This document shows, in pieces, positions 21,645 through 36,342 of a stretch of 64,000 nt of DNA. This DNA is from Bacteroidetes bacterium GWF2_40_14 (lineage in GTDB: Bacteria; Bacteroidota; Bacteroidia; Bacteroidales; UBA932), in NCBI GenBank assembly GCA_001769195.1, contig MEOK01000019.1, positions 8,715 through 72,714 on the forward strand, given 5' to 3'. Every line of letters starts with the position of its first letter. Positions within the stretch are counted from its first letter, which is position 1. Both the position numbers and the translations under genes were made by a program. The notes beneath the pieces are model-generated. The model was given only the letters and a program-made list of their open reading frames with translations, was not told where the DNA came from and did no database searches.

Positions 21645-22982
21645 ATGAAAGTAGCAGAGATTATGGCCTCGCTGGAAAAAAAGTATGGTCATGAAAAAGA
21701 GTACTTACAAGCAGTTCACGAGGTTCTAGAATCAATTGAAACAATTTACAATCAACATCCCGAGTTCGAGAAAGCTAAGATCGTAGAGAGACTGGTTGAA
21801 CCAGACCGTATTTTTACATTCCGTGTAACATGGCAGGACGACAAAGGTGAAGTTTTGACTAACCTGGGTTACCGTGTTCAGTTCAGCAACGCAATCGGCC
21901 CATACAAAGGCGGTTTCCGTTTTCATCCTTCAGTAACCCCTTCAATTCTTAAATTCCTGGGTTTTGAGCAGACATTCAAAAATGCTTTGACTACTCTCCC
22001 TATGGGTGGAGCTAAAGGTGGTTCTGATTTCAACCCTAAGGGTAAATCAGACGCAGAAATAATGCGTTTCTGCCAGGCTTTTATTACTGAATTGTGGCGT
22101 AACATAGGTCCTGACACAGATGTTCCTGCAGGTGACATAGGAGTTGGTGGAAAAGAGATTGGTTTCATGTACGGTTGGTACAAGAAACTTGCTCGTGAGA
22201 ATACTGGCGTTTTGACAGGTAAAGGTTCAACATGGGGTGGATCTCTTATCCGTCCTGAGGCTACTGGTTTTGGTGGTGTTTACTTTGTAAATCATATGCT
22301 TAAGACTAGAGGAATTGACATCAAAGGCAAAACAGTATCTGTATCTGGTTTTGGTAATGTTGCATGGGGTGCTGCCCTTAAAGCAACTGAACTGGGGGCT
22401 AAGGTAATTGCTCTTTCAGGTCCTGATGGCGTTATAATTGACGAAGCTGGTATGACAGAAGAGAAAATTGCATATATGCTTGACCTTCGTGCTACTAACA
22501 ATGACGTTGTTGCTCCTTATGCAACCAAGTTCCCGGGATCAAAATTTGTAGCCGGCAAAAAATCATGGATCGTTAAGGTTGACATAGCTCTTCCATGCGC
22601 ATTCCAGAACGAACTTAACGGTGACGATGCAAAACAGCTTATTGCTAACGGAGTGACATGTGTTGGTGAAATCTCAAACATGGGTTGCACACCTGAGGCT
22701 ATTGCAGAATTTGTAAATGCTAAGGTTCTTTATGCTCCCGGTAAGGCAGTAAATGCAGGTGGAGTTGCTGTTTCAGGTCTTGAAATGACTCAGAACGCAA
22801 TGCATATCAGTTGGACAGCAGAAGAGGTTGATGCAAAACTTAAACAAATCATGTTAAGTATTCATGATGCTTGTGTTAAATACGGAACACAGAAAGATGG
22901 TTACATCAACTATGTAAACGGAGCTAACATCGCAGGTTTCATGAAGGTTGCCCAGGCAACTTTGGAGCAAGGTCTTTGCTAA
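21645..22982 (+). CDS. gdhA: Glutamate dehydrogenase, hexameric NADP-type
   Basis: 445-residue glutamate dehydrogenase that interconverts 2-oxoglutarate plus ammonia with glutamate. The catalytic region contains GPYKGGFRFHPSV and the active-site lysine block PMGGAKGGSDFNPKGKSD; the dinucleotide-binding fold has VSVSGFGNVAWGAA. Length and sequence fit the 50-kDa bacterial hexameric enzymes, usually NADP(H)-specific; cofactor choice is inferred. It lies 49 bp after korB with no obvious terminator between, so 2-oxoglutarate synthesis and ammonia assimilation may be co-expressed. It is convergent with the lanthipeptide cluster, which begins 84 bp downstream. Confidence 0.95.
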   Translation: MKVAEIMASLEKKYGHEKEYLQAVHEVLESIETIYNQHPEFEKAKIVERLVEPDRIFTFRVTWQDDKGEVLTNLGYRVQFSNAIGPYKGGFRFHPSVTPSILKFLGFEQTFKNALTTLPMGGAKGGSDFNPKGKSDAEIMRFCQAFITELWRNIGPDTDVPAGDIGVGGKEIGFMYGWYKKLARENTGVLTGKGSTWGGSLIRPEATGFGGVYFVNHMLKTRGIDIKGKTVSVSGFGNVAWGAALKATELGAKVIALSGPDGVIIDEAGMTEEKIAYMLDLRATNNDVVAPYATKFPGSKFVAGKKSWIVKVDIALPCAFQNELNGDDAKQLIANGVTCVGEISNMGCTPEAIAEFVNAKVLYAPGKAVNAGGVAVSGLEMTQNAMHISWTAEEVDAKLKQIMLSIHDACVKYGTQKDGYINYVNGANIAGFMKVAQATLEQGLC

Positions 22983-23066
22983 GCAAATGTACTTAAAAGG
23001 AATTTACATATAGATTTTATTTCAGTACTACCTAATGATTAGATAATTAGTTTATCATAATATAAA

Positions 23067-24371
23067 TTATTGGGCGGTACTGATTTTACCAAATAGTACT
23101 TTAAAAGGTAAAATAAATCTTTCAAATAACCTGCTTTTTTGTGTTACAATTTCACCTGTTCCATCCATTCGTTGTATCATAATAAGCTTTTCTTTATAAC
23201 TAGATTGTAATCCAAAGGGAAATATTATATCAGCTCCATAGAAACCTTCTTCTGGAACTGATGAAAGACTTTTGATTTGGCCTTTAAGTATCCCGTACTC
23301 CATAGATGGATAGCTATTTAGTTTAACATTAACTTTCTGTCCAATAGCTATTTTCCCGAACCCAATAGAAGGTATATACATCTTTCCTATTACAGAACTA
23401 GAATCTTTAGGTACCACGCTAGCTAATCTTTGACCAATTTGAATACTTTGGTTATTACTCCAATATTTTGTAAATGAAATCTGTCCTGAAATAGGTGTAA
23501 AGAGTAGATATTTATCTTTCCATAAGTTGATTTGAGAGAGCAGTAACTGACGAATTTTGTATAATTCAAGATTATATAACGTGATTTCATTCTCTTGTTG
23601 GATTATCAATTCAACAAGTGATTGTTCCATTTGCATGATACTTAGCTCTGTATTCTTAATTGTAACTTCATATCCAGCAGATACATTCTTTTTCTGAATC
23701 AATGATTGCGTGGAGCGTTCAAAATCAAGAGATGATATAACTTTACTTGCGAAAAGAATGGAATCCCGATCAAATTTTTTCTTTTCATAAACCAAGTCCT
23801 CAGTAATAATTTTTTTCTGATCAATTTGTTTCTGGTAATACTCTTTGTTCTTATTAATCTGAGCTCTAAGAAGTGTCCTATTTTTTGATAGATGGTCACT
23901 TTCAGTATAATGTTTATAATCCATATACAAACGTTTTAGTTCCGAATAATGTTCCTGCAATTCTCCCAGAAGATATTCTTTTTCAATCCATTTGCTATTT
24001 TTGTTAGTTATAAAATAATCAATACTTTTTTCAGTAAGATTATGTTCAACTTCTAAAACAGAGGCATAATGAGATGTGTTATAGATCAGCGCAATTACAT
24101 CTCCTTCGACTACACTGTCGCCATCTTTTACAAATAGACTATCTATACGACCCTGAGTTTTTATGATAATATCTACAGGTGGGTTTGCAGTTGTAATTGT
24201 GATTGGACCAACTATTGTTTGAGGATATTGGATGTAATATGAACCAATCAACATTACTATAAAGATTAAAAAAATTCCCCCCATACCCTTGCGAATAATC
24301 CATTTGGGAACCTTTCCCATTATTTCATTAGCTTCTTCGCTATGGAAATCTACTAAATTGTTTTCTGACAT
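23067..24371 (-). CDS. HlyD-family membrane fusion adaptor of the lanthipeptide exporter
   Basis: 434-residue periplasmic adaptor. A cytoplasmic N-terminus is followed by one membrane segment (about residues 28-47, GGIFLIFIVMLIGSYYI). A biotinyl-lipoyl-like half-motif comes next (IIKTQGRIDSLFVKDGDSVV), then a long coiled coil (about 95-270) and the second half (LLFTPISGQISFTKYWSNNQ). Such proteins link an inner-membrane ABC exporter to an outer-membrane channel. The ATG at 24371 (MSENNLVDF) is preferred over one six codons upstream that overlaps the transporter gene. It is the last gene of the cluster. No TolC-like partner is encoded nearby, so a genomic OMF must be shared if the product is secreted. 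Confidence 0.9.
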   Translation of the reverse strand: MSENNLVDFHSEEANEIMGKVPKWIIRKGMGGIFLIFIVMLIGSYYIQYPQTIVGPITITTANPPVDIIIKTQGRIDSLFVKDGDSVVEGDVIALIYNTSHYASVLEVEHNLTEKSIDYFITNKNSKWIEKEYLLGELQEHYSELKRLYMDYKHYTESDHLSKNRTLLRAQINKNKEYYQKQIDQKKIITEDLVYEKKKFDRDSILFASKVISSLDFERSTQSLIQKKNVSAGYEVTIKNTELSIMQMEQSLVELIIQQENEITLYNLELYKIRQLLLSQINLWKDKYLLFTPISGQISFTKYWSNNQSIQIGQRLASVVPKDSSSVIGKMYIPSIGFGKIAIGQKVNVKLNSYPSMEYGILKGQIKSLSSVPEEGFYGADIIFPFGLQSSYKEKLIMIQRMDGTGEIVTQKSRLFERFILPFKVLFGKISTAQ

Positions 24372-24378
24372 AGTATAA

Positions 24379-26583
24379 TTAATTACCAAGTTCCAATTGA
24401 TCTTGAATAAGATTATAATAAAAACCTCTTTTACTTACTAGCTTCATATGTGATCCTTCCTCAATAATCACTCCTTTATTAAGGACAACAATATTATCTG
24501 CTTTCTTAATTGTGCTTAATCTGTGTGCTACAATAATAACCGTTTTCCCCTTAAAAAAGTCTGCTAAATATTCCAATATTATTTTTTCATTAGTTGCATC
24601 CAATGAGTTAGTTGCTTCATCAAAGAAAATATAATCGGCATTTTTATAAACAGCTCTAGCAATTAGTAATCGTTGCTTCTGACCAGTACTAAGACCATGA
24701 CCTTCTTCTCCAATTACTGTGTTGTACCGAAGGGGTAATGCTTCAATAAAATCGCTAATATTTGAGATCTTAGCTGCTTTTTCAACACGCTCATTGTCAC
24801 ACTGATCAGCAACTGTAATATTAGAAAGGATAGTATCGGAAAAAATGCGACCCTCCTGCATTACAGCGCCACAACATTTTCTCCAACTGCTATCACTATA
24901 CTTATTAAAAGGAATGCCACCAAGTAATATGTCACCTTCGGAAGGATAATAAAATTTTAAAAGCAGTTTTATTAGAGTAGATTTCCCGCTACCACTCGTC
25001 CCGACTATAGCGGTTGTTTTGCCATATGGGATTTTTAAGTTAATATTATTTAAAACCTTATCAGAATTTGGACCCTCGTACTGAAATATCACATTTTTAA
25101 ACTCAATATCTTTTCCTTTTGGAATGTCCTTAATATTTATTACTGTATTAGGTTCTTCATCTTCTTTAGTATGAATTTCATTAAGACGTTCTAAAGAAAT
25201 TTTTGCATCTTGAGAAGCTTGAATGAACCCGATAAATTGAGAAAGTGGGGCGTTCATTTGTCCAATAATATATTGTAGTGCCATCATCATTCCAAGAGTT
25301 ATATCTCCACTAATAACAGCCTTTGCAGCTAAAAAAGAGATAAAGACATTTTTTAGTTGGTCGATAAATAATCCGCCAACTTCCTGCATTTGACCTAATG
25401 CAAGACTTTTAATACTAATCTTATATAACTTCACTTGTATTCGCTCCCAGGACCATCTTTTTTGTTTCTCGTAATTATTAAGTTTGATCTCCTGCATGTC
25501 TGTGATTAATCGATATATATTACTTTGATTCGCTGCAGATTCCTGAAAACGCATATAATCTAACTTTCTTCTTTGTTTCATGAAAAGTATAATCCAGCTA
25601 ACATAAAAGATGCTACCAATAAAGAAGATTCCCCAAATCAACAAACTGAAACTTGCCATTAAACAACTATATACAATGAAAGTAATAATTGCCATAACTA
25701 TACTAATCAGTGATCCTGTAAGGAAATTTTGAATGCGACTGTAATCTCCCATTCGTTGCGTTATATCACCAATCATCTTCTTATCAAAATATGCTATTGG
25801 TAGCCGCATCAATTTACTTAAGAAATCTGAAATCAAGGAAATACTAATTCTTGTTGTTATATGTAGCATCAACCATCCTCTAATCAAGTTATTTATCATT
25901 TGACCAACACTCAACATTACTTGTGCAATTAAAATGACGATAACAATATCTAAGTCGCTATTTCCAATACCAGAATCTACAACCGCTTGTGTAAGAAAAG
26001 GGAAGATCAGACTTAAAATACTGGAAGTTAAAAGGCCAAAAAACAACTGAACAAAATATTTTTTGTACGGACGGAGATAATTTAATAAAAAAAGAAATTT
26101 AATTCCATCATATTTCTGATCAACTTCCTCGTAAAACTTTGGAGTTGGTTCTAAAAGTAACACAGTACCACTTTTTTCTCCAATATTATTGAGTGATGAC
26201 AACCAAGATCTGAGAAAAACATCTTTGTCATATTTTAAAAGACCATGTGCTGGATCTGATATATAAATATTATCAGGTTTGACTCCTCTCCCTTTCTTAA
26301 TATCATAAATCACGATAAAATGTTGCTGATTCCAGTGAGCAATACAAGGAAGGTTAACATCATCTCGCAATTGATCCCATGTCAGTTTTGCACCATAAGT
26401 ACGAAATCCGATACTTTCAGCAGCATCACTGATGTCCAACATAGAGACACCTTCTCTAGTAACATAACATTTATCGCGAAGATACTGTGAAGGGTAACTA
26501 TTACCATAATATTTTGCTATTATTCGCAAACACGTTGCTCCACAGTCCATTGACTCTAACTGTTTGTAAAAAGGAAATCCCAT
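24379..26583 (-). CDS. Peptidase C39 ABC exporter (bifunctional LanT-type)
   Basis: 734-residue ABC exporter with an N-terminal cysteine protease that cleaves double-glycine leaders. The C39 domain (1-125) has the oxyanion Gln8, catalytic Cys14 in MDCGATCL, His88 in NQQHFIV and Asp110 in ISDPAHG. Six membrane segments cover about residues 165-450. The nucleotide-binding domain has Walker A at 528-536 (GTSGSGKST), signature LSTGQ at 631-635, Walker B ending DE at 655-656, and the switch His at about 687. All catalytic residues are present, so it should both trim and transport the precursor, whose leader ends in Gly-Gly. It lies 116 bp after the LanB C-terminal gene. Confidence 0.95.
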   Translation of the reverse strand: MGFPFYKQLESMDCGATCLRIIAKYYGNSYPSQYLRDKCYVTREGVSMLDISDAAESIGFRTYGAKLTWDQLRDDVNLPCIAHWNQQHFIVIYDIKKGRGVKPDNIYISDPAHGLLKYDKDVFLRSWLSSLNNIGEKSGTVLLLEPTPKFYEEVDQKYDGIKFLFLLNYLRPYKKYFVQLFFGLLTSSILSLIFPFLTQAVVDSGIGNSDLDIVIVILIAQVMLSVGQMINNLIRGWLMLHITTRISISLISDFLSKLMRLPIAYFDKKMIGDITQRMGDYSRIQNFLTGSLISIVMAIITFIVYSCLMASFSLLIWGIFFIGSIFYVSWIILFMKQRRKLDYMRFQESAANQSNIYRLITDMQEIKLNNYEKQKRWSWERIQVKLYKISIKSLALGQMQEVGGLFIDQLKNVFISFLAAKAVISGDITLGMMMALQYIIGQMNAPLSQFIGFIQASQDAKISLERLNEIHTKEDEEPNTVINIKDIPKGKDIEFKNVIFQYEGPNSDKVLNNINLKIPYGKTTAIVGTSGSGKSTLIKLLLKFYYPSEGDILLGGIPFNKYSDSSWRKCCGAVMQEGRIFSDTILSNITVADQCDNERVEKAAKISNISDFIEALPLRYNTVIGEEGHGLSTGQKQRLLIARAVYKNADYIFFDEATNSLDATNEKIILEYLADFFKGKTVIIVAHRLSTIKKADNIVVLNKGVIIEEGSHMKLVSKRGFYYNLIQDQLELGN

Positions 26584-26699
26584 CTTAAAAGAAAAATTAT
26601 TATTTTTTGTAATTACTTTATGAGACTATTATATGATATTTATTTAAATTTTTTTATTGAAACTTTCTGTATCCTATAGACTGATTAAATGTGAATTAT

Positions 26700-27563
26700 T
26701 CATTTCTTCATATGGCTTACAGAGTGTTTCAATTTTTCCATATATCCATAAAAAATGAGACTATAAAGAATTGTTTCATATTTATTCTGATTATTACGAA
26801 ATAATCGGTTAATTGACATGTGTACTATACTCTCAAACATATTCCTTAGTATAGTATCAGTCATATGATTTAAATTTTTTATAGACTGAATTTGAGAAGT
26901 GAATTCCTTTACGTTTAGTTCTGATATTTTTGTTAAGTCATTATTTGTTGAAAGTATTGTCGAAATTTCATCTTTGTTTTCGTAATATTTTCTCTTAATT
27001 TGATCTGCTACGCTTTTAAATTTTGCGTTTTCAGGAATGAACCTTCTAAATAAATCATTAAAAATTTCAACACGAGTTTCGATTTTATAATTGAATAAAT
27101 TGGAATAGAAGTCTAGTAATAAAATCCCATACTTCCATCTATCTTCTTCGTGAATATCGTTATTTAATGTTGTCAATATCTTAATTATTGCTACAGAATC
27201 GTATTCAAAGAGAGATTCTACAAATTCAATTCCTTCTTCATCTCCATATCTCTCCATTTCTCTAAAATAAGTATCGAGCTGAATTTTCCATATAATACCG
27301 TTACTTACATAGCTTTGAATTTGTTCGCAAAAATATTTATAAACAAGATAATTGTTCTCTGCTGTAATACATTTGAATCGTATCCTTAGATGATAATCTT
27401 CTTCAAAATATCTAATATAGAACCATTTAGATATAAGGTTCATTTTTTTTAATTTGTAGGCGATTTTATAGACAGAATTAATAAGAACATTATCAGAATC
27501 TCTTATATTACAAAAAATCTTAAAGTAAGCCCATTCTTCGTTTGGGAAAAAAACACGTTTCAT
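26700..27563 (-). CDS. Lanthipeptide dehydratase, C-terminal elimination part (thiopeptide-type, SpaB_C-like)
   Basis: 287-residue protein resembling the stand-alone 'thiopeptide-type bacteriocin biosynthesis' domain that forms the C-terminal lyase of full LanB enzymes. The typical opening is seen: WAYFKIFCNIRDSDNVLINS followed by KWFYIRYFEEDYHLRIRFK, and further in QLDTYFREMERYGDEEGIEF with the conserved E-R-Y-G segment. In the known pathway this domain eliminates glutamate from glutamylated Ser/Thr to give dehydroamino acids. It starts immediately after the stop codon of the glutamylation-domain gene, so the two almost certainly form one split dehydratase. Confidence 0.88.
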   Translation of the reverse strand: MKRVFFPNEEWAYFKIFCNIRDSDNVLINSVYKIAYKLKKMNLISKWFYIRYFEEDYHLRIRFKCITAENNYLVYKYFCEQIQSYVSNGIIWKIQLDTYFREMERYGDEEGIEFVESLFEYDSVAIIKILTTLNNDIHEEDRWKYGILLLDFYSNLFNYKIETRVEIFNDLFRRFIPENAKFKSVADQIKRKYYENKDEISTILSTNNDLTKISELNVKEFTSQIQSIKNLNHMTDTILRNMFESIVHMSINRLFRNNQNKYETILYSLIFYGYMEKLKHSVSHMKK

Positions 27564-29747
27564 TTATTTTTTTTTAAAAAGAACAAGAATCTCATTCGTA
27601 TAAATTTCTTCTATTTGAGATAGAAGGCGATCAGCATATAAAAATTCATTAACCGTTATATTATTATATTGTTTGATTGCATTAAGCAGTATTTTTATAT
27701 TGTGCCACTCTTTTATATTTAGTAATAATTCATTATCTCCTGTAGAAAAAGTTATTAATTCTGGGATTGCTCTCTTTATTCTCCATTTCTCGAACTTCTC
27801 CATCCCGATATATTCAGGTTCATTAAAGAAATCTTTTACTTCTATATAATTAATTCGCCAACAAGCTTTTGATATAATGGAGTTTCCGAATACTACTCTC
27901 GGAAGGTATTTACATTCACTTAATACAACGGGCCATTCAAAAAAACTAGATGAGGTTTTTGTTTTATAATCTTCAAAGTCGCATAAAAAACGATATATTG
28001 GTAATGAGCTTGATTGGTAGTAATGTGCGTTACATAGGCGAGGAATAACCTCCTTGTTATTCTTTTTGGAGAATAAAAGAAGTTTCTTTTTTACAATTCT
28101 AAGAGAAAGATCGTTTATGTCTATAATATTATTACTTGAAACTGTTGAACGTGATAAATAGGGAATTTCATAGTCATATATGGGAGGGTGCTGAGCAATA
28201 TTTCCTAGTCGATTCTCTGGGATATGAAGTATTTCAGCAAAAATTGTCTCTGGACTATGGATATTATCAAGTTGTGCGAAATCTTTAATTATTGACAATA
28301 TTTTTTTATCCAAATATGCAAAGCGTGCTGTTAGCTGAATCGCATTCTTGCCTATGCCCCTAAAATATATGCATAAATCTTTCTCTGTCCCAGATATATA
28401 CTGAATTATACATGCAAAAGAATTTTGATTAAATGAAATCTTGCGATATTCAATAGGGATATCTTCCCATTCAAAATTTATAACATCATTTTTGTTATCC
28501 AGAAAGTCAAGATATTTCTTAAGTATTAAATCACAAACCCAATTCCATTGTACATTTGTACTTCTTATTTCAGATGGGAAGGATATGTTATTGAAAATAG
28601 GGCAAATACTATTTGACATTCCAAATTCTTGATCGACAGGATATCCAATTCCTAAATCAGGATCGAGAGCTGTAACTAGGTCAATAGTTTGAGAGCCATA
28701 TCTTTGCTCAAATTTTTTGCAAAAACTGTCAATTGTACTTGACTTGATAGATGAAAATGCAGCTAAAAATGAAGCTGTATGTTTTACTTCTTTTCTAACG
28801 TCATAACTCAATCGGTTATCACAATAATTTGTGAGATAATCCACCTGAAACAAATTATTTTCGTTAAATTTTATTCCTAAATTAAAAGCAAGATCCTTAA
28901 TATTTAAGATTTGTTCAATATTAGCGCAACTATCATTATTTTGGGAATACTTAACTGCTTCATTAATAAAAACAGTTATATCTTTGTCAAGAACATGGTT
29001 ATTTTGAAATATCTTGAGAATAGTTTGCAAAAGAAATGGGTCTGTGACTGATATGTCTATGTTTGTTGTAATAACTTGATTATGGACTAATTCGTAAAAA
29101 GCTGTTTTTGCTTCTTTTTTTGTCGCTCCATTGTTAAGGAATATTAATTCAATCTCACGATATGTTATCCCATTTTTAGATTTGTTAAGTAATTCCTCTA
29201 AACAGGGAGTTTTGCAAATTTGACTTAAAATATATCTTCTTTTTTTGCGCATCCCAAACTCATATTCTACATAACGATATTGATTTGCAATCTCGTACAA
29301 TGTAGAATTAACTTTATATATTAGATATTTGTGGATATTACTACTCCCTTTTAATTTCTCAATTAACTCACTAAGAAAAGCATTATCTAATCGAATTAAT
29401 TTCTTTGCTATTTTTTTTTCCTCATTCCTTGTTATAATGTTTTTTCCATCATAAAATTCACCAATATTTATACCAGCAAATAACCCGAATGGGGTACATC
29501 TATAAGTTAACCGAGAAAGGTATTTTGTCAAACTTATAAACTCTTTTTCTCTTATTTTATTTTCTTTTCTATAAAGAAAGTAATAAAAATCGGGAGAACT
29601 TATATATATAGCTTCCTTTATAATTTCATTTGAGAACAAATTTAGAATGTTTTCTCTGTAATTTCCGGTAAATTGTGTATACCATGTGTTTAAAGAAAAT
29701 AATGGACTTCTAATAACATAATAATCGATAATGTCGTGACTCCTCAT
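27564..29747 (-). CDS. Lanthipeptide dehydratase, N-terminal glutamylation part (LanB)
   Basis: 727-residue Lant_dehydr_N-type protein. In characterised class I systems this part uses glutamyl-tRNA to glutamylate Ser and Thr of the precursor. The N-terminal blocks expected for the family are present: FLYRKENKIREKEFISLTKY, then RLTYRCTPFGLFAGINIGEF. The middle contains CKKFEQRYGSQTIDL and DPDLGIGYPVD. It lacks the SpaB_C-like elimination domain, which is the next gene, so the dehydratase is split as in pinensin and thiopeptide systems. Its ATG overlaps the lanC stop by 4 bp. About 65-70% AT by eye, unlike the housekeeping genes. Confidence 0.9.
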   Translation of the reverse strand: MRSHDIIDYYVIRSPLFSLNTWYTQFTGNYRENILNLFSNEIIKEAIYISSPDFYYFLYRKENKIREKEFISLTKYLSRLTYRCTPFGLFAGINIGEFYDGKNIITRNEEKKIAKKLIRLDNAFLSELIEKLKGSSNIHKYLIYKVNSTLYEIANQYRYVEYEFGMRKKRRYILSQICKTPCLEELLNKSKNGITYREIELIFLNNGATKKEAKTAFYELVHNQVITTNIDISVTDPFLLQTILKIFQNNHVLDKDITVFINEAVKYSQNNDSCANIEQILNIKDLAFNLGIKFNENNLFQVDYLTNYCDNRLSYDVRKEVKHTASFLAAFSSIKSSTIDSFCKKFEQRYGSQTIDLVTALDPDLGIGYPVDQEFGMSNSICPIFNNISFPSEIRSTNVQWNWVCDLILKKYLDFLDNKNDVINFEWEDIPIEYRKISFNQNSFACIIQYISGTEKDLCIYFRGIGKNAIQLTARFAYLDKKILSIIKDFAQLDNIHSPETIFAEILHIPENRLGNIAQHPPIYDYEIPYLSRSTVSSNNIIDINDLSLRIVKKKLLLFSKKNNKEVIPRLCNAHYYQSSSLPIYRFLCDFEDYKTKTSSSFFEWPVVLSECKYLPRVVFGNSIISKACWRINYIEVKDFFNEPEYIGMEKFEKWRIKRAIPELITFSTGDNELLLNIKEWHNIKILLNAIKQYNNITVNEFLYADRLLSQIEEIYTNEILVLFKKK

Positions 29748-30961
29748 AAAGTTTTATCATTTAATAATAAACATTCTTCCCAGTTATTTAATCTGCCATC
29801 TAAACGGGACAAAAGTACTAGCCCAATTCCGCTTAGACCTAATAGAAATCCTTTACTAAGATAGGGACCTCCATCTATTTCATGTTTCCAGGCATATACT
29901 TTTTCAATATTCCCACATTTAATAATTTCATTAATTGTAAAGGCAAACCAATAATCAGCAGCCTCTTTGAAAATAATATCATTAGTCATAAGAAATATTT
30001 CATCAAAGAAGATTATAAGCCCAGAACTACCATGGCATATACTAAAATCTTTTATAAAATTGGAGGCGGGATCTCTTCTCTGCGCACAATTAATAAGTAC
30101 TCTATGTCCGATTTCTATGTAATGCTTATTTTTTAATAGTATCCCTGATTTTAAAATAGATAGACCTACACCCAAATCTCCATAACACCATGCTAGTCTG
30201 CTATATTCTGTAGATTTTGAGTTGGGGGTTACAAAATTTGGGAAGAAAGATCCTATTAAACTAGCATTTTGCATAATTTCGATAAAATAATTTACGCCTC
30301 CTTCAATTAACCTACAAATAATGTCGTTATTATCTGTTTGAAAATTTGCAAGTTTGATTAAATATAGAATTATACTTGGCATACCATGCGCCAAACCGAT
30401 GTTATAACTGATGGATTTTCGGACAGAATCTTTATATTCCCATTTATATATATTGCCCTCCGTTTTACATGTTTGTAAGAAAAAAGTTACATATTGATCG
30501 GTTATTGCTTTTCTCGACATAAAATTTTCTAATACTAATCCTAATCCAATATTGCCATGCAATAGGTCGTAGTTTCTTTCAGAAGAATTTGTTTTAAATT
30601 GATCTTGTAATAAATATTGATATGAATTAATTTTATTTTCATCTAATTCAACTATTGATTTTTTTTTTAGATGAAAAAGTGTCCATAAAAACCATTGAAA
30701 GTCGTTTGATTTGTTTCTATTTTGCGAGTTATTTAAAAAGGACATTTCGTTTTCTAGGTAATTACTACCGACCAGAAAACTTTTTTCATCTCCCGAGTAT
30801 AAAAAATCATAAAAGAAAAAAAGAGAAGCACCAGATTTACCATTAAAGAAACCAGTAGTTTCAATGGGGTTGTTGAATATAAACTTCTTAATTTCAAGAA
30901 TAATTTCCCTGACAATAAATTGATTGGGTACTAACATTTGGCGAGAATAATAAAATTCCAT
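29744..30961 (-). CDS. Lanthionine synthetase C-like cyclase (LanC)
   Basis: 405-residue LanC-like alpha-toroid protein that adds Cys thiols to dehydrated residues to form lanthionine rings. Repeated helix-barrel motifs are visible: LLHGNIGLGLVLE, GLAHGMPSIILYL, WCYGDLGVGLSIL, CHGSSGLIIFFD and GFLLGLSGIGLVLL. The zinc ligands expected from NisC are present: Cys259 in CYGDLG, Cys309 and His310 in CHGSSG. The start ATG at 30959-30961 lies inside a perfect inverted repeat (30954-30999), so its translation is probably reduced by structure. It directly follows the precursor gene and overlaps the LanB gene by 4 bp. Confidence 0.93.
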   Translation of the reverse strand: MEFYYSRQMLVPNQFIVREIILEIKKFIFNNPIETTGFFNGKSGASLFFFYDFLYSGDEKSFLVGSNYLENEMSFLNNSQNRNKSNDFQWFLWTLFHLKKKSIVELDENKINSYQYLLQDQFKTNSSERNYDLLHGNIGLGLVLENFMSRKAITDQYVTFFLQTCKTEGNIYKWEYKDSVRKSISYNIGLAHGMPSIILYLIKLANFQTDNNDIICRLIEGGVNYFIEIMQNASLIGSFFPNFVTPNSKSTEYSRLAWCYGDLGVGLSILKSGILLKNKHYIEIGHRVLINCAQRRDPASNFIKDFSICHGSSGLIIFFDEIFLMTNDIIFKEAADYWFAFTINEIIKCGNIEKVYAWKHEIDGGPYLSKGFLLGLSGIGLVLLSRLDGRLNNWEECLLLNDKTL

Positions 30962-30999
30962 TTAGGATGATCATTACAATCAAACTCCTAAATGGAATT
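30954..30999 (-). promoter_or_regulatory. Stem-loop between precursor gene and lanC, covering the lanC start codon
   Basis: AATTCCATTTAGGA (30954-30967) and TCCTAAATGGAATT (30986-30999) are perfect complements, 14 bp each, around an 18-nt loop. In the mRNA the lanC ATG is buried in the 3' arm. There is no U-tract after it, so it is not a normal terminator. A role in limiting lanC translation or in stabilising the upstream precursor mRNA is inference. Confidence 0.7.
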
Positions 31000-31042
31000 C
31001 GATAATATATATAACGTCTACAGTACTTTTTGAGTGTTTAAA

Positions 31043-31291
31043 CTAAAAAATACAATTATCTTCTGTTGTATTGCACCCAAAATGACTGTTTGGATCTGTA
31101 CTACATGTCGCCATTGCAGTTGTCGGAACGATGGTATCAAGTGGGCATACTAAGCAATCTGTTTCTTCGGTTGATGGTTCCTTAAGAACATTTGAATCAG
31201 GGCATGTTCCTCCCTTAAGGGAGTTTTGTCGATTGCGGCTCAATTCAAGAATAGTTTCTTTTTTCAAATCGAATTCAAATTTTTTTTTCAT
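31043..31291 (-). CDS. Lanthipeptide precursor with double-glycine leader (LanA)
   Basis: 82-residue precursor. The leader is residues 1-28, MKKKFEFDLKKETILELSRN followed by RQNSLKGG. It matches the Bacteroidota pattern of class I lanthipeptide leaders (K-rich start, hydrophobic L/I spacing, T-I, terminal GG). C39 cleavage after Gly28 would release a 54-residue core starting TCPDSNVLKEPSTEETDCLV. The core has six Cys (positions 2, 18, 21, 35, 45, 52 of the core) and fourteen Ser/Thr, the ingredients for up to six (methyl)lanthionines. It is acidic: nine Asp/Glu against one Lys. An upstream in-frame ATG at 31339 adds 16 hydrophobic residues; I prefer 31291, the leader-type start. It is first in the operon. 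Confidence 0.9.
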   Translation of the reverse strand: MKKKFEFDLKKETILELSRNRQNSLKGGTCPDSNVLKEPSTEETDCLVCPLDTIVPTTAMATCSTDPNSHFGCNTTEDNCIF

Positions 31292-31362
31292 AATACAATA
31301 ATTTAATTTATTAATAATTATAGAGCACAGTAGTACCACTAGAATTAGTATACTATATGTAA

Positions 31363-31394
31363 CAAATATATGTAATTTATTTTTAAAGTTAAAA
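31363..31394 (-). promoter_or_regulatory. Promoter of the lanthipeptide precursor operon
   Basis: On the minus strand a TTTT at the -33 position (31391-31394) is followed after 20 bp by TATATTTG (31363-31370), a full -7 match. The transcript would start near 31356, giving a leader of about 65 nt before the precursor ATG at 31291. Confidence 0.65.
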
Positions 31395-31663
31395 TTTTTG
31401 CAATCATTTTCAGTACTTTAAACAGTTTGCTGATCCCTTAAGTGTGATTTATTCCAACCCTGCATAGTCTAGTCTTACAATACTAAAAAGACTCAGAGGG
31501 AAAAACAATAAAAACTACTATTTATATGAATTATCAATACATTTAAAGATTATTTAAAATAGTGAAATTTATACTTAAATTAAGGCTGAAACTTTGGAAT
31601 TATGTATCAGATTGTCGTCAAAAGAGAGAAATTCATTAAATTATTGTCACTGATCTATATCTG
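31395..31663. other. Gene-free stretch between the lanthipeptide promoter and the susD terminator
   Basis: Together with the lanA promoter and leader, the gap from 31292 to 31726 is 435 bp. In this part I find no reading frame longer than about ten codons, no second precursor, no tRNA and no obvious repeat. It is AT-rich like the cluster. Confidence 0.6.
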
Positions 31664-31703
31664 AATTAAAAAAATAAAGGCTGCCCAGAAAAGTTGGACA
31701 GCC
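31664..31703 (-). terminator. Terminator after susD
   Basis: On the minus strand GGCTGTCCA (31695-31703) pairs with TGGGCAGCC (31679-31687) with one mismatch. The 7-nt loop is followed by TTTATTTTTTT. It ends the susC-susD transcript. Confidence 0.85.
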
Positions 31704-31726
31704 CTATATTAGAATAATTAAATGAT

Positions 31727-33166
31727 TTATAGAGGATTCTGAACCATGTTAGGGTTTGAGTCAATCTCCTGCTTAGGTATTAAGAACACAAGGTTCTTGT
31801 CCCCTGCAGGGAAGTTTGATGCAGCGTTCCATAATGATTCTGTATGACCAAGACCTCTGCGGTCCAAACCGGTGTTAAGACGTTTGATGTCGAAGAATCT
31901 TTGTCCTTCACCCCAAAGGTCGGCCCTGCGGTGCATAAGGATATGATCAATAAGAGCCTGGCCTGTTAGAGTAGATTTAACATAAGATGGATCTCTCTTT
32001 GAAATCAGATTAAATAATACTGTCTGTGCAGCAGGATCGCCACCGCGACGTGCTTCAGCTTCGGCTTCAATCAGGTACATTTCACCAGCTTTGATGTACA
32101 GATAGTCGTTTGTCCACTCACCCCAGCCTGAGAATTTGTCTCCAACTCTAGGTTTGCCGGCTATTGTATAGTGACATGCCTTTCTTGCATCTGTATTACT
32201 CATGAAGTTGTATACAGCAGTACTCAACAGCTTGTGGTTTCCTAAACTTGCATATCCACCAAAATAAGGGTCGATATGCGAGAAGAATGATGCATAACTG
32301 GTTTGTTGTTCATCTATAAGAACAGCACCCCATATCCACTCTGTAGAGGCTTTGTTGAAACCGTAGTTGTAATCTGCTTCAAGTGATGTACCTGCTCTTG
32401 CAGCTTGTGCGTAAGTAACCGCAGCTGGATAATCACCGGTTGTCAAAGCAACTCTTGCAGCAATGGCGTTTGCTACATTCAGGTTGATGTGAGATACATT
32501 AGGCCTTGATGTTGTATTACCAGTAAGTAGTGTAATAGCATCTGTAAGGTCCTTTTTAATCTGAGTATAAACAGCAGCTACAGTACTTCTTGGCAGTGCT
32601 TCTGAATTTGAAACCAACACAAGAGGAACACCAAGGTGAGAGTTTGCTCCACCTGGTACATATCTGTCTGCATAGTACTGAACAAGATTGTAATGAGAAT
32701 AAGCTCTGTATACTAAAGCCTGAGCCTTGATATTGTCTCTTTTTGGTTTTTGTGCGTCAAAAACAGATATCTTGTCAATATTTGCCAGAAGCAGATTTGA
32801 GTTGTTGATAAGGTCGTAGTAGTATGACCATACATACTCAAGATTTAATGAGTTTATATTACGGTGCTCGATATATTGGTACCAGCTGACAAACCATCCG
32901 TAACCCCTCTCTGTAGAGTAGAAGTCTTCACCCAAAACATCATTTATATAATCACATGACTTTTGACCAAACCTATCGTGAGTGCCATAAAAGTAATAGG
33001 TTGCCCTGTGAATACCTTCGAGCAGTGTCTGGGCTCCGGTGAGAGTGGTAAAGAGGTCTTTCTCTGCTATACTTGCAGATGGAGCTGTCTCTAAGTACTC
33101 TTTGTTACAAGAGGCAAGGCTTAGAGTAGCGAGTAATAAAACTAGTATATATTTTTTCATATTCAT
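31727..33166 (-). CDS. SusD/RagB-family nutrient-binding outer-membrane lipoprotein
   Basis: 479-residue surface lipoprotein. The signal MNMKKYILVLLLATLSLASC places the lipid Cys at residue 20. The TPR-like SusD fold is recognised by AQALVYRAYSHYNLVQYYAD and LMHRRADLWGEGQRFFDIKR near the C-terminus. SusD proteins cap the partner SusC barrel and bind the substrate (glycan or peptide) before TonB-dependent import. The gene is 5 bp downstream of susC. No glycoside hydrolase or sigma/anti-sigma pair is next to it; the divergent neighbour is a secreted M64 peptidase, so peptide or glycoprotein uptake is plausible but not shown. Confidence 0.93.
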   Translation of the reverse strand: MNMKKYILVLLLATLSLASCNKEYLETAPSASIAEKDLFTTLTGAQTLLEGIHRATYYFYGTHDRFGQKSCDYINDVLGEDFYSTERGYGWFVSWYQYIEHRNINSLNLEYVWSYYYDLINNSNLLLANIDKISVFDAQKPKRDNIKAQALVYRAYSHYNLVQYYADRYVPGGANSHLGVPLVLVSNSEALPRSTVAAVYTQIKKDLTDAITLLTGNTTSRPNVSHINLNVANAIAARVALTTGDYPAAVTYAQAARAGTSLEADYNYGFNKASTEWIWGAVLIDEQQTSYASFFSHIDPYFGGYASLGNHKLLSTAVYNFMSNTDARKACHYTIAGKPRVGDKFSGWGEWTNDYLYIKAGEMYLIEAEAEARRGGDPAAQTVLFNLISKRDPSYVKSTLTGQALIDHILMHRRADLWGEGQRFFDIKRLNTGLDRRGLGHTESLWNAASNFPAGDKNLVFLIPKQEIDSNPNMVQNPL

Positions 33167-33171
33167 ATCAG

Positions 33172-36100
33172 TTAAAATGTAATATTAAGTCCAAGAGAAA
33201 CAATCTTTGAAGGAATGTAGGTGTGGTCCGCAGTTCCGTTAAAGGTTTGTTGTGGATCCAGTCCCTTTCTTGCAGCAAATAGTGCAAGATTGTCGCCTGT
33301 TGCATATATTCTAACAGAAGCAATGTCAAGCTTCTTAAGAAGTTTAGCAGGAATTGTATAGCCTAAAGTTACATTTCTGAAAGAAAGGTAACTGGCACTT
33401 ACCAACCATCGACTCGAAGCTGCAGTTGCTGCAGTATATGCATTTTGCAATCTAGGAACATTTGTTTTAGTATTCTCAGGAGTCCAACGGTCAGCAATAT
33501 CTACATGCATTGCAGAACCAAAAGCACCCGGATGCATCAAGGCCGCATAGTTGGTGTCGTATATTTTACCACCAAGTTGGAATGTTACAAATAAAGACAG
33601 GTCAAATCCATATGCTCTGATTGTGTTTGTGATACCACCGTATAAATCAGGAATTGACGAACCTTTGTAGTAGTAAGAGGCAGCATTCTGGTCCTTTGTA
33701 GTCTCTTTTCCTGTAACATTGCCATCGGTATCTTTAATGTCCTTGTAATACAGCGCACTCCCGTCAGTTGCATCTACTCCCGCATAATCACGCAGCCAGA
33801 AATCGTATACTGAATGGCCAACAGAAAGTTTCTTCGTTCCTGAGATAATCTCCTGTGGTTTTCCTGCAGGGTCAAGAGGCATCTTTGTAATCTCGTTTTT
33901 GTAGCCTGTTGCGTTTATATCCAAGGTCCATTTGAATTTATTGGCTTTAACTATATCACCGGACAGAGTAATTTCAAAGCCATTGTTCTTCATTGTTCCT
34001 ATATTGGCCCATTTTGTGCTGATGCCTGTAGATTGTGGAAGTGGAACCTGGAAAAGAAGGTTGCTTGATTGTCTCTGGAAATATTCAACCTGACCACGTA
34101 ATCTGTTCCATAAAGAAAATTCGATACCTACGTTAAGGTTGGCGTTTTTCTCCCATTTCAAATCCGGATTTGGCAGCTGAGCGTAAAGAGATCCATTATA
34201 ATTTCCATTGTTCCTGTCGTCGATAGAGTACAGACTTTGATATCCGTAATAGTTAACTGTACCATCGGTGTTTCTTATGTCATCATTACCTTGCTGACCA
34301 TAAGAAAATTTAAATTTCAAATCATCTACAAAATTGATGTCGGCCAGGAAAGACTCTTGTTTAAGTCTCCATGAGGCACCTAATGACCAGAAACCTCCCC
34401 AACGTGACTGACTGGCGAATCTTGATGTTCCATCATAACGATATGAGGCAGATAGGAAGTATTTATTCTGGAGTGAATAGCTTGCTTGTCCAAAATAGCC
34501 TTCCTGAGTATAGATGTTATTTGTTGAAGCAGAACCCTCCGCTACAGAGCCTGCTATAAGTTCATTTGATAGAATCTTAAAACCTGTTCTTGTTGCCCAA
34601 AGATTATTGTCGCGAAGTTGGTAATTTTCGTGACCTGCCAGAATATTGATGTTATGTTCGCCGAATGTTTTGTTGTAGGTCAATACCTGATTGAAAGTAT
34701 ACGAATTAGTTTTAAGATAATCTTTTGTAGATCTGCCGGATACACCTTCAGCATCACCAAACTGATTGTTCTGATAAGTAGTTTTGTAAATGTTACTTAT
34801 ATCTGTGCTACCGGAAATTTTAAGAGTAAAATCCTTAAGGAAAGTAAATTCACCTGAAACTCTTGCAGAAAGCTGGTTTCTGGTATTTGATCTGTTATCC
34901 AGAGGAAGAGTAACTATAAGGTTAGAGTTTGGAGCATAAGGTCTTGTGTGTCCGGCCCATTTGTAAACCGATGAACCACCACCCATATCATAAGCAGGAG
35001 AACCATCTGACATATTGATAATCTTGCCTTCTGCATCTCTCTGATAAATAGGATAGATAGGTCCCATCATCCTTCCATAGTAGAATGGGTTTGTTGTATA
35101 TGTACCCTCAGCAAGGAATCCGCTCTGATTTGCTGAATAGCCAGATAAACCAGCCTCTATCTTAAACCATTTGTTGACTTTTGAAACCATGCTTACACGA
35201 CCTGTGAACCTGTCGTAATCTGACCATTTAACATAACCTTTTTCTTTGATGTAACCAAATGAAGAAAAGTAAGTGGTATTATCTGAACCACCGTTTACAG
35301 ATACATTATAATCTTGTCTAAGGCCAGCTTGAGAAAGAGCATCAATCCAGTCGTCCTGATAAAGTAGTTTTGCACTGGCATTAAGTTTGCCATCTATTCC
35401 AACAACCTGGTCTGCAGCAACGTTAAATGGATTGTAGTACCCTAATTTTGCAACTATACCACTTGAAGTAGCACCACTTGCCTGAGCGCGGGCAGCTGCA
35501 TCGGTCATTCCACCGGCAATAACGCGGGCGTTTTTCCAGCCTTCCCACATGTACTCATAGTATTTCTGCGGGCCAACTCTGTCATACTCCGGTACAGACC
35601 TTGAAGTAGCACCAATGTTGACTTTTGCTGTAACTGATGTTTTGCCTACTTTGCCTTTTTTTGTAGTAACCATGATAACGCCATTGGCACCACGAGAACC
35701 GTAAAGAGCAGCAGCTGCTGCATCCTTCAGTACACTGATAGATTCAATGTCATCCGTTCCTATGGCATTGATGTCACCATCATATGCAGCACCGTCAACA
35801 ACATAAAGAGGAGCACTTGATGAATAAACTGAACCAATACCACGAATTCTGATTGAGGCAGAAGAACCTGGCTGACCGGATCCGCCAACAACCTGAACCC
35901 CTGCCACTGCACCGGCAAGAGATTTTGTAAGGTTTGTTGACTGAATCTTTTCAATTTGTTCTTTTTTAACTACAGCAGCCGAACCTGTGTAAGAAGATCT
36001 CTTGACTGTTCCGTATGCAACTACAAGAACGTCTTCCAGTAACATTGCATCTTGTTGTAGTTTTACGTTGATAACGGAGAAATTACCAACTGTAACCAAC

Positions 36101-36342
36101 TCTGTTTTCATACCAATAAAAGAGAACTCTAGTATTGCACCACGAGTTGCAGCTATTGAGTATTTTCCGTCCAGGTTTGTAACAGTTCCCGATGTTGTTC
36201 CCTGAATCCTGACAGATGCTCCTATTACAGGAGAGCCATCAGTAGCATCAGTAACAGTTCCTGTCACCTGAAGAGTCTGTGCCGAGAGCACATTCCCAGC
36301 CACTAAAAGCAGTGTGGCGAGAAGTAATCTGATTTTTTTCAT
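33172..36342 (-). CDS. SusC/RagA-family TonB-linked outer-membrane transporter
   Basis: 1056-residue TonB-dependent barrel. A signal peptide covers 1-21 (ends NVLSAQ). A carboxypeptidase-regulatory-like beta domain follows at about 25-110 (VTGTVTDATDGSPVIGASVR), then the plug from about 120, with LYVVDGAAYDG and SVLKDAAAAALYGSRGANG, the signature of SusC plugs. The rest is the 22-strand barrel ending SKIVSLGLNITF. The partner is susD. Substrate cannot be read from the sequence. The 236-bp gap to the divergent peptidase gene contains no perfect -7 match on this strand. Confidence 0.95.
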   Translation of the reverse strand: MKKIRLLLATLLLVAGNVLSAQTLQVTGTVTDATDGSPVIGASVRIQGTTSGTVTNLDGKYSIAATRGAILEFSFIGMKTELVTVGNFSVINVKLQQDAMLLEDVLVVAYGTVKRSSYTGSAAVVKKEQIEKIQSTNLTKSLAGAVAGVQVVGGSGQPGSSASIRIRGIGSVYSSSAPLYVVDGAAYDGDINAIGTDDIESISVLKDAAAAALYGSRGANGVIMVTTKKGKVGKTSVTAKVNIGATSRSVPEYDRVGPQKYYEYMWEGWKNARVIAGGMTDAAARAQASGATSSGIVAKLGYYNPFNVAADQVVGIDGKLNASAKLLYQDDWIDALSQAGLRQDYNVSVNGGSDNTTYFSSFGYIKEKGYVKWSDYDRFTGRVSMVSKVNKWFKIEAGLSGYSANQSGFLAEGTYTTNPFYYGRMMGPIYPIYQRDAEGKIINMSDGSPAYDMGGGSSVYKWAGHTRPYAPNSNLIVTLPLDNRSNTRNQLSARVSGEFTFLKDFTLKISGSTDISNIYKTTYQNNQFGDAEGVSGRSTKDYLKTNSYTFNQVLTYNKTFGEHNINILAGHENYQLRDNNLWATRTGFKILSNELIAGSVAEGSASTNNIYTQEGYFGQASYSLQNKYFLSASYRYDGTSRFASQSRWGGFWSLGASWRLKQESFLADINFVDDLKFKFSYGQQGNDDIRNTDGTVNYYGYQSLYSIDDRNNGNYNGSLYAQLPNPDLKWEKNANLNVGIEFSLWNRLRGQVEYFQRQSSNLLFQVPLPQSTGISTKWANIGTMKNNGFEITLSGDIVKANKFKWTLDINATGYKNEITKMPLDPAGKPQEIISGTKKLSVGHSVYDFWLRDYAGVDATDGSALYYKDIKDTDGNVTGKETTKDQNAASYYYKGSSIPDLYGGITNTIRAYGFDLSLFVTFQLGGKIYDTNYAALMHPGAFGSAMHVDIADRWTPENTKTNVPRLQNAYTAATAASSRWLVSASYLSFRNVTLGYTIPAKLLKKLDIASVRIYATGDNLALFAARKGLDPQQTFNGTADHTYIPSKIVSLGLNITF

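Follow-up and report, generated by a model that had tools for sequence, protein, structure and literature searches.

We describe a biosynthetic locus in a 64,000-nucleotide stretch (the window) of contig MEOK01000019.1 from Bacteroidetes bacterium GWF2_40_14, which very likely serves to make and export a class I lanthipeptide in the manner of other Bacteroidota clusters and was probably gained by horizontal transfer. This reading draws on the gene families, catalytic residues, gene order, Gly-Gly leader and low guanine-cytosine (GC) setting, all present in the DNA itself. Window positions 23067–31291 hold six uninterrupted minus-strand genes in one compact unit, as an original prediction from the letters alone had placed them: the precursor LanA (31043–31291; 82 aa), consisting of a 28-residue leader ending in LKGG and a 54-residue core; the cyclase LanC (29744–30961; 405 aa), with zinc ligands C259, C309 and H310; the N-part of a split LanB (LanB-N; 27564–29747; 727 aa), predicted to be a glutamyl-tRNA-dependent Ser/Thr glutamylating enzyme; its C-part (LanB-C; 26700–27563; 287 aa), a predicted glutamate lyase; an ATP-binding cassette (ABC) transporter containing a C39 peptidase (24379–26583; 734 aa), predicted to remove the leader and export the product; and an HlyD-type periplasmic adaptor (23067–24371; 434 aa), whose start we took as the ATG at 24371, the open reading frame list beginning it at a TTG farther upstream, 24389. 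The LanC and LanB-N genes overlap in an ATGA and LanB-N directly abuts LanB-C, making the arrangement operon-like.

The Pfam matches of LanC (LANC_like PF05147, E 4e-33), LanB-N (Lant_dehydr_N PF04738, E 1.1e-97), LanB-C (Lant_dehydr_C PF14028, E 1.4e-51) and the exporter (Peptidase_C39 PF03412, E 1.8e-30) are beyond chance, and the adaptor matched HlyD_3 (E 2.7e-9). Among known structures, LanB-N matched PDB 9g04 (E 1.3e-31) and 5ehk (E 6.5e-9), LanB-C matched 9g04 (E 2e-12) and NisB 4wd9 (E 1.8e-8), and LanC matched 8byk (E 7.2e-12) and NisC 2g02 (E 1e-9). Together with the gene order found in other genomes, these matches bear out the predicted class I pathway with a split LanB, and the possibility raised at that time, that the LanB- and LanC-like genes belong to unrelated families, did not materialise. 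The catalytic residues that had been called intact are indeed in place: LanC contains WCYG (from 258) and CHG (from 309), aligned with NisC, and the C39 domain of the exporter contains C14, H88 and D110. The locus thereby combines a LanB with glutamylation and elimination domains, a LanC with C...CH zinc ligands and a linked precursor with a leader and a Ser/Thr/Cys-rich core, as in class I, with the Gly-Gly leader end, the C39 peptidase in the cluster and the LanB on two chains that mark the GG-leader subgroup.

In an alignment, R60, R62, E102, R105 and H248 of LanB-C are the counterparts of NisB residues 784, 786, 823, 826 and 961. LanB-C carries the NCBIfam name thiopeptide-type bacteriocin biosynthesis protein, and thiopeptide pathways often have split LanBs (PMC9011353), as would suit a thiopeptide- or pyritide-like pathway in which the free-standing C-part would act as a [4+2] pyridine synthase and not as a glutamate lyase. 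We consider such a pathway highly improbable, since the NisB lyase residues have their counterparts in LanB-C, a LanC is present and no YcaO or second C-part occurs among the open reading frames of the unit, the remaining genome not having been searched for YcaO. Equally improbable is a SapT-like split LanB whose syn-elimination would give allo-methyllanthionine: such lyases do occur in some split LanBs (PMC9486935), with a hydrophobic residue at the position of NisB Arg826 and without the catalytic His (PMC9486935, PMC9011353), but LanB-C lacks this signature, retaining both R105 and H248 where those lyases have lost or replaced them. Because the residues for anti-elimination are retained by the criteria of these two papers, LanB-C is predicted to be an anti-eliminating lyase that yields ordinary methyllanthionine.

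For the class I pathway we infer the chemical steps and the export route as follows. LanA would be made with its 28-residue leader, LanB-N would esterify Ser and Thr residues of the core using glutamate from Glu-tRNA, and LanB-C would remove the glutamate by anti-elimination to leave dehydroalanine and dehydrobutyrine, to which LanC would add Cys thiols, forming as many as six thioether rings. In the course of export, the C39 domain of the transporter would cut the leader off behind Gly-Gly; HlyD would act as one partner and a TolC-like outer-membrane protein from elsewhere in the genome as another, for which 18 OEP-domain matches in ten frames provide candidates. The product would most likely be a secreted antagonist or signal; antimicrobial, antifungal and signalling roles are equally allowed by the sequence, and none is favoured.

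The LanA leader, MKKKFEFDLKKETILELSRNRQNSLKGG, spans 28 residues with a GG end and reads F-x-L-x-K-x5-L, in which F replaces the first L of the LxLxKx5L motif (PMC7268733). Across the genome, LanA is the best match to the NCBIfam model lant_leader_L1a (NF038153; E 3.9e-4, 20.5 bits); two further matches, at E 0.27 and 0.54, were taken as chance. The 54-residue core contains 6 Cys, 10 Thr and 4 Ser, and a precursor devoid of a Ser/Thr/Cys pattern and never modified, the other outcome that had been held against the prediction, is thus not what the sequence suggests, with 14 Ser/Thr beside the 6 Cys. In a comparison with 38 further candidate cores, which came from 18 loci, the core showed no significant similarity, in line with the earlier remark that it was unfamiliar; 25 of 200 shuffled versions of the LanA core itself equalled the best core-to-core score, so we claim no relative for it, and it looks new and uncharacterised. 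The pattern used to search for precursors requires the leader motif, which makes the motif frequency in the fetched loci circular and unused as evidence, and some candidate precursors in the 30-locus set are plainly chance matches to the pattern.

In a sample of 295 genomes from the order, 20 gave a match to LanC and 23 (in 19 of 183 genera) a match to Lant_dehydr_N, the present genome counted in both, compared with Lant_dehydr_N matches in 0 of 14 control genomes. Of 39 fetched loci, 8 (6/30 and 2/9) show the run LanC, LanB-N, LanB-C, exporter, HlyD in this same order, namely L088, L089, L091, L096, L100, L106, L132 and L135; three of these have one LanB part spread over two or more frames, and the HlyD gene of L135 is truncated where the contig stops. 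Contig ends also truncate at least nine of the 31 loci that lack the full run. A phylum-wide sample gave a LanC match in 11 of 394 other genomes, all from the same class and another order; this sample includes a few same-order genomes, with no LanC match among those listed. A search for named LanC relatives produced 36 pattern matches, none of which proved to be a relative.

The host belongs to the order of Phocaeicola, Bacteroidales, as had been predicted. RpoB identity is 91–92% to two metagenome-assembled genomes named Bacteroidales bacterium, and likewise to HGW-Bacteroidetes-5 and HGW-Bacteroidetes-8. In an RpoB tree of 26 rows from 29 genomes (two gave no match, and G327, in two pieces, was omitted), Phocaeicola lies beside G258 and G165, both labelled as belonging to the window's order, and this clade joins that of the window with support 96/97, while Bergeyella lies with same-class genomes; the midpoint root, which serves display purposes only, leaves four same-order genomes on the side of Bergeyella. 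This placement settles the order; DNA matches of a Phocaeicola gene were uninformative, consisting of short or weak pieces (best 66%). The Bacteroidales of GTDB is wider than that of NCBI. A published screen of 1,136 Bacteroidales genomes states that LanB is completely absent (PMC10352776). Our sample of the order contradicts that statement, with Lant_dehydr_N matches in 23 of its genomes and Lant_dehydr_C matches in 5 of 59 same-family genomes, the present one included and one of the five with short pieces only. For the literature since 2020 on LanB lanthipeptides in Bacteroidales, a search that left subscription journals largely uncovered returned only this survey and a bacteriocin review (PMC7616364). 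The locus provides an entire pathway, open to testing, for a thioether-ringed peptide that looks new, in an order from which LanB had been reported missing; as the kind of pathway is already established, the surprise for specialists is modest.

To describe how well the machinery is conserved, we counted columns that are at least 92% conserved among length-filtered relatives from the same order, a few same-class rows being added for LanC. LanC keeps 29 of 30 such columns (28 relatives), LanB-N 37 of 41 and LanB-C 21 of 28 (23 relatives each), the exporter 266 of 301 (13 relatives) and HlyD 32 of 38 (10 relatives). Identity to the nearest aligned relative is 0.29 for LanC, 0.31 for LanB-N, 0.33 for LanB-C, 0.57 for the exporter and 0.36 for HlyD, and local LanC matches reach 33–35% in the order sample and 34% phylum-wide. 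The machinery therefore looks intact but divergent, and several observations weigh against a working class I pathway. The kept fraction falls below the leave-one-out median of the relatives in LanB-N (0.90 vs 0.98), LanB-C (0.75 vs 1.00), the exporter (0.88 vs 0.98) and HlyD (0.84 vs 0.95), and LanC alone equals it; that the exporter and HlyD lie lower than every relative, with only LanC at the median, is our main reason for doubting activity. The LanB-N row forms a long branch in its tree (2.17 changes per column) and is of unusual composition, for which reason we assign it no sister group. The leader score stays just under the curated cut-off of 22 bits, and at E up to 1 the leader model also matched in 3 of 14 control genomes, with 0 over the cut-off. 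No immunity, regulator, protease or outer-membrane gene occurs among the open reading frames of at least 150 aa in the unit. A decaying, non-functional relic whose divergent enzymes no longer modify LanA would account for the long LanB-N branch, for the 7 of 28 conserved LanB-C columns that have changed and for an exporter and adaptor that keep fewer conserved columns than any relative. Set against six uninterrupted frames, genes that overlap or abut and retained catalytic residues, however, decay appears improbable, and a functional class I pathway remains our preferred explanation.

With respect to origin, the cluster has a GC content of 30.4%, as against 41.5% for the remaining window, and the lowest value among 394 equal-length stretches outside the cluster is 40.3%. 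None of the three other same-genus genomes sampled contains Lant_dehydr_C. One of them, G339, has gdhA and, 612 bases farther along, susC-susD on the same strand, then a peptidase gene and rpoC, with no cluster, whereas in the window the cluster sits between gdhA and an inverted susCD; the flanks common to both share 73–79% DNA identity. The inversion concerns the susCD pair adjoining the cluster (window 31727–36342 vs L129:5664–10270 in G339). Of the other two, G224 has a different susC-like gene after gdhA and G321 has gdhA with other neighbours. Either the lineage of the window gained the cluster by insertion and underwent an inversion of susCD, or the cluster was lost elsewhere; insertion is favoured because of the low GC, and the cluster was probably acquired horizontally.

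Certain findings count against acquisition. A cluster-free site with the same neighbours was found in only one of the three same-genus genomes (G339), the LanB-N tree gives no firm sister, and no donor was found, the highest LanC identity being 34% phylum-wide and the plasmids giving one record, from Spirosoma, at 25%. No integrase or transposase was recognised among window open reading frames of at least 150 aa, as judged by eye with no dedicated search. Repeats at the island ends were also considered, yielding AT-rich partial matches only, none convincing. The same pathway might instead have been inherited vertically and lost in sister species, with no recent acquisition, as the Lant_dehydr_C matches in five same-family genomes would allow; the 11-point GC contrast argues otherwise, as does the separation of the present LanB-N from those of family members G314 and G327, although its placement is unsure, and we judge vertical inheritance unlikely, if a good deal less so than decay. 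A bolder version of the acquisition reading, in which the cluster represents a divergent split-LanB lineage recently moved between Bacteroidota, encoding a new structural family with up to six rings in 54 residues and the first class I lanthipeptide shown to come from Bacteroidales, is tentative, and we lean against it. If true, it would concern an order where a published survey found no LanB (PMC10352776). LanB genes occur in Bacteroidales; here they lie in a small low-GC stretch that may be mobile.

The leader of nisin is of the FxLD type, and its protease is a separate enzyme of the serine type. The present enzymes have the LanB lyase residues and LanC zinc motifs in common with NisB and NisC, but NisB is one chain and the LanB here is split. 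Class I lanthipeptides had originally been described as mainly Gram-positive, which overstated their rarity elsewhere, as nearly one quarter of class I LanCs come from Bacteroidetes, where class I precursors have an LxLxKx5L leader with a GG site and accompany a C39 protease and split LanBs (PMC7268733). By its split LanB, its C39 peptidase and the GG at the end of a leader that comes near the motif, F standing in place of the first L, the cluster falls, on sequence grounds, within these known split-LanB, GG-leader lanthipeptides of Bacteroidota; it differs from them in a leader just under the NF038153 cut-off, a core dissimilar to the 38 candidates and a Bacteroidales host. What appears new is the core, the divergent LanC and LanB-N (29–35% identity to the nearest found) and the low-GC setting. 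LahT150, used on one of the characterised peptides, is a C39 protease domain. By description only, the cluster may be likened to three systems: the pinensins of Chitinophaga (Mohr et al. 2015), likewise split-LanB class I from Bacteroidota (PMC7268733); PedA15.2 of Pedobacter lusitanus, a Bacteroidota class I lanthipeptide to which LahT150 was applied (Bothwell 2021, cited in PMC12328550); and LanI-101 of Runella limosa, also class I from Bacteroidota, which was made in a laboratory host with 4–6 dehydrations and 3 (methyl)lanthionines, its authors seeing efficient modification in none of their class I clusters and noting that some LanBs depend on the tRNA-Glu and GluRS of the source organism (PMC9576775).

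Between LanA and LanC, a strong RNA hairpin (30947–31006, minus strand; −29.7 kcal/mol, z −3.6) contains the LanC start codon in its 3′ arm and is possibly an attenuator or a stabiliser of a transcript end. When 13 spacers 3′ of candidate LanAs, selected by our own choice and including the present one, were folded, 11 gave z ≤ −2.3 against mononucleotide shuffles, so a hairpin after LanA is a common feature of such clusters; the obvious reading is attenuation, by which precursor output would exceed enzyme output. Upstream of LanA, TATATTTG (31363–31370, minus strand), 71 bases before the LanA ATG, fits TAnnTTTG, the consensus of the Bacteroidota −7 box; no TTTG lies within 27 bases upstream of the box. 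A terminator-like hairpin (31677–31705, minus strand) follows susD upstream of LanA, one of 8 terminator-like sites found in 22900–32000 against 3.0 expected. Because of this hairpin after susD and the box before LanA, LanA may have its own promoter; that promoter-like sites are no commoner than in shuffles counts against the cluster reading as a whole.

Other loci fetched from the order showed further arrangements. L093 (5485–8435; G186) contains 11 tandem candidate LanAs and L094 (5227–7094; G082) seven, beside LanC and a split LanB, with very similar leaders and very different Cys-rich cores, an arrangement that resembles a combinatorial library of lanthipeptides within Bacteroidales. L099 (G133) combines LanB-N, LanB-C, a C39 exporter, HlyD and a candidate precursor, but its 18 kb of fetched sequence holds no LanC, and the order-wide LanC search gave no match in G133 either; its peptides are perhaps dehydrated without cyclisation, or a cyclase was missed. 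Split LanB pairs occur without LanC or a C39 exporter in the fetched stretches of L102, L103 and L104 (G233, G022 and G136), whose LanB-N sequences form their own clade (support 100/100) and which may belong to pathways for modified peptides of a different kind; in G022, a LanC lies on a different contig (L111). Finally, L087 (G129) contains four LanC genes, three candidate LanAs and one unsplit LanB frame of 1071 aa.

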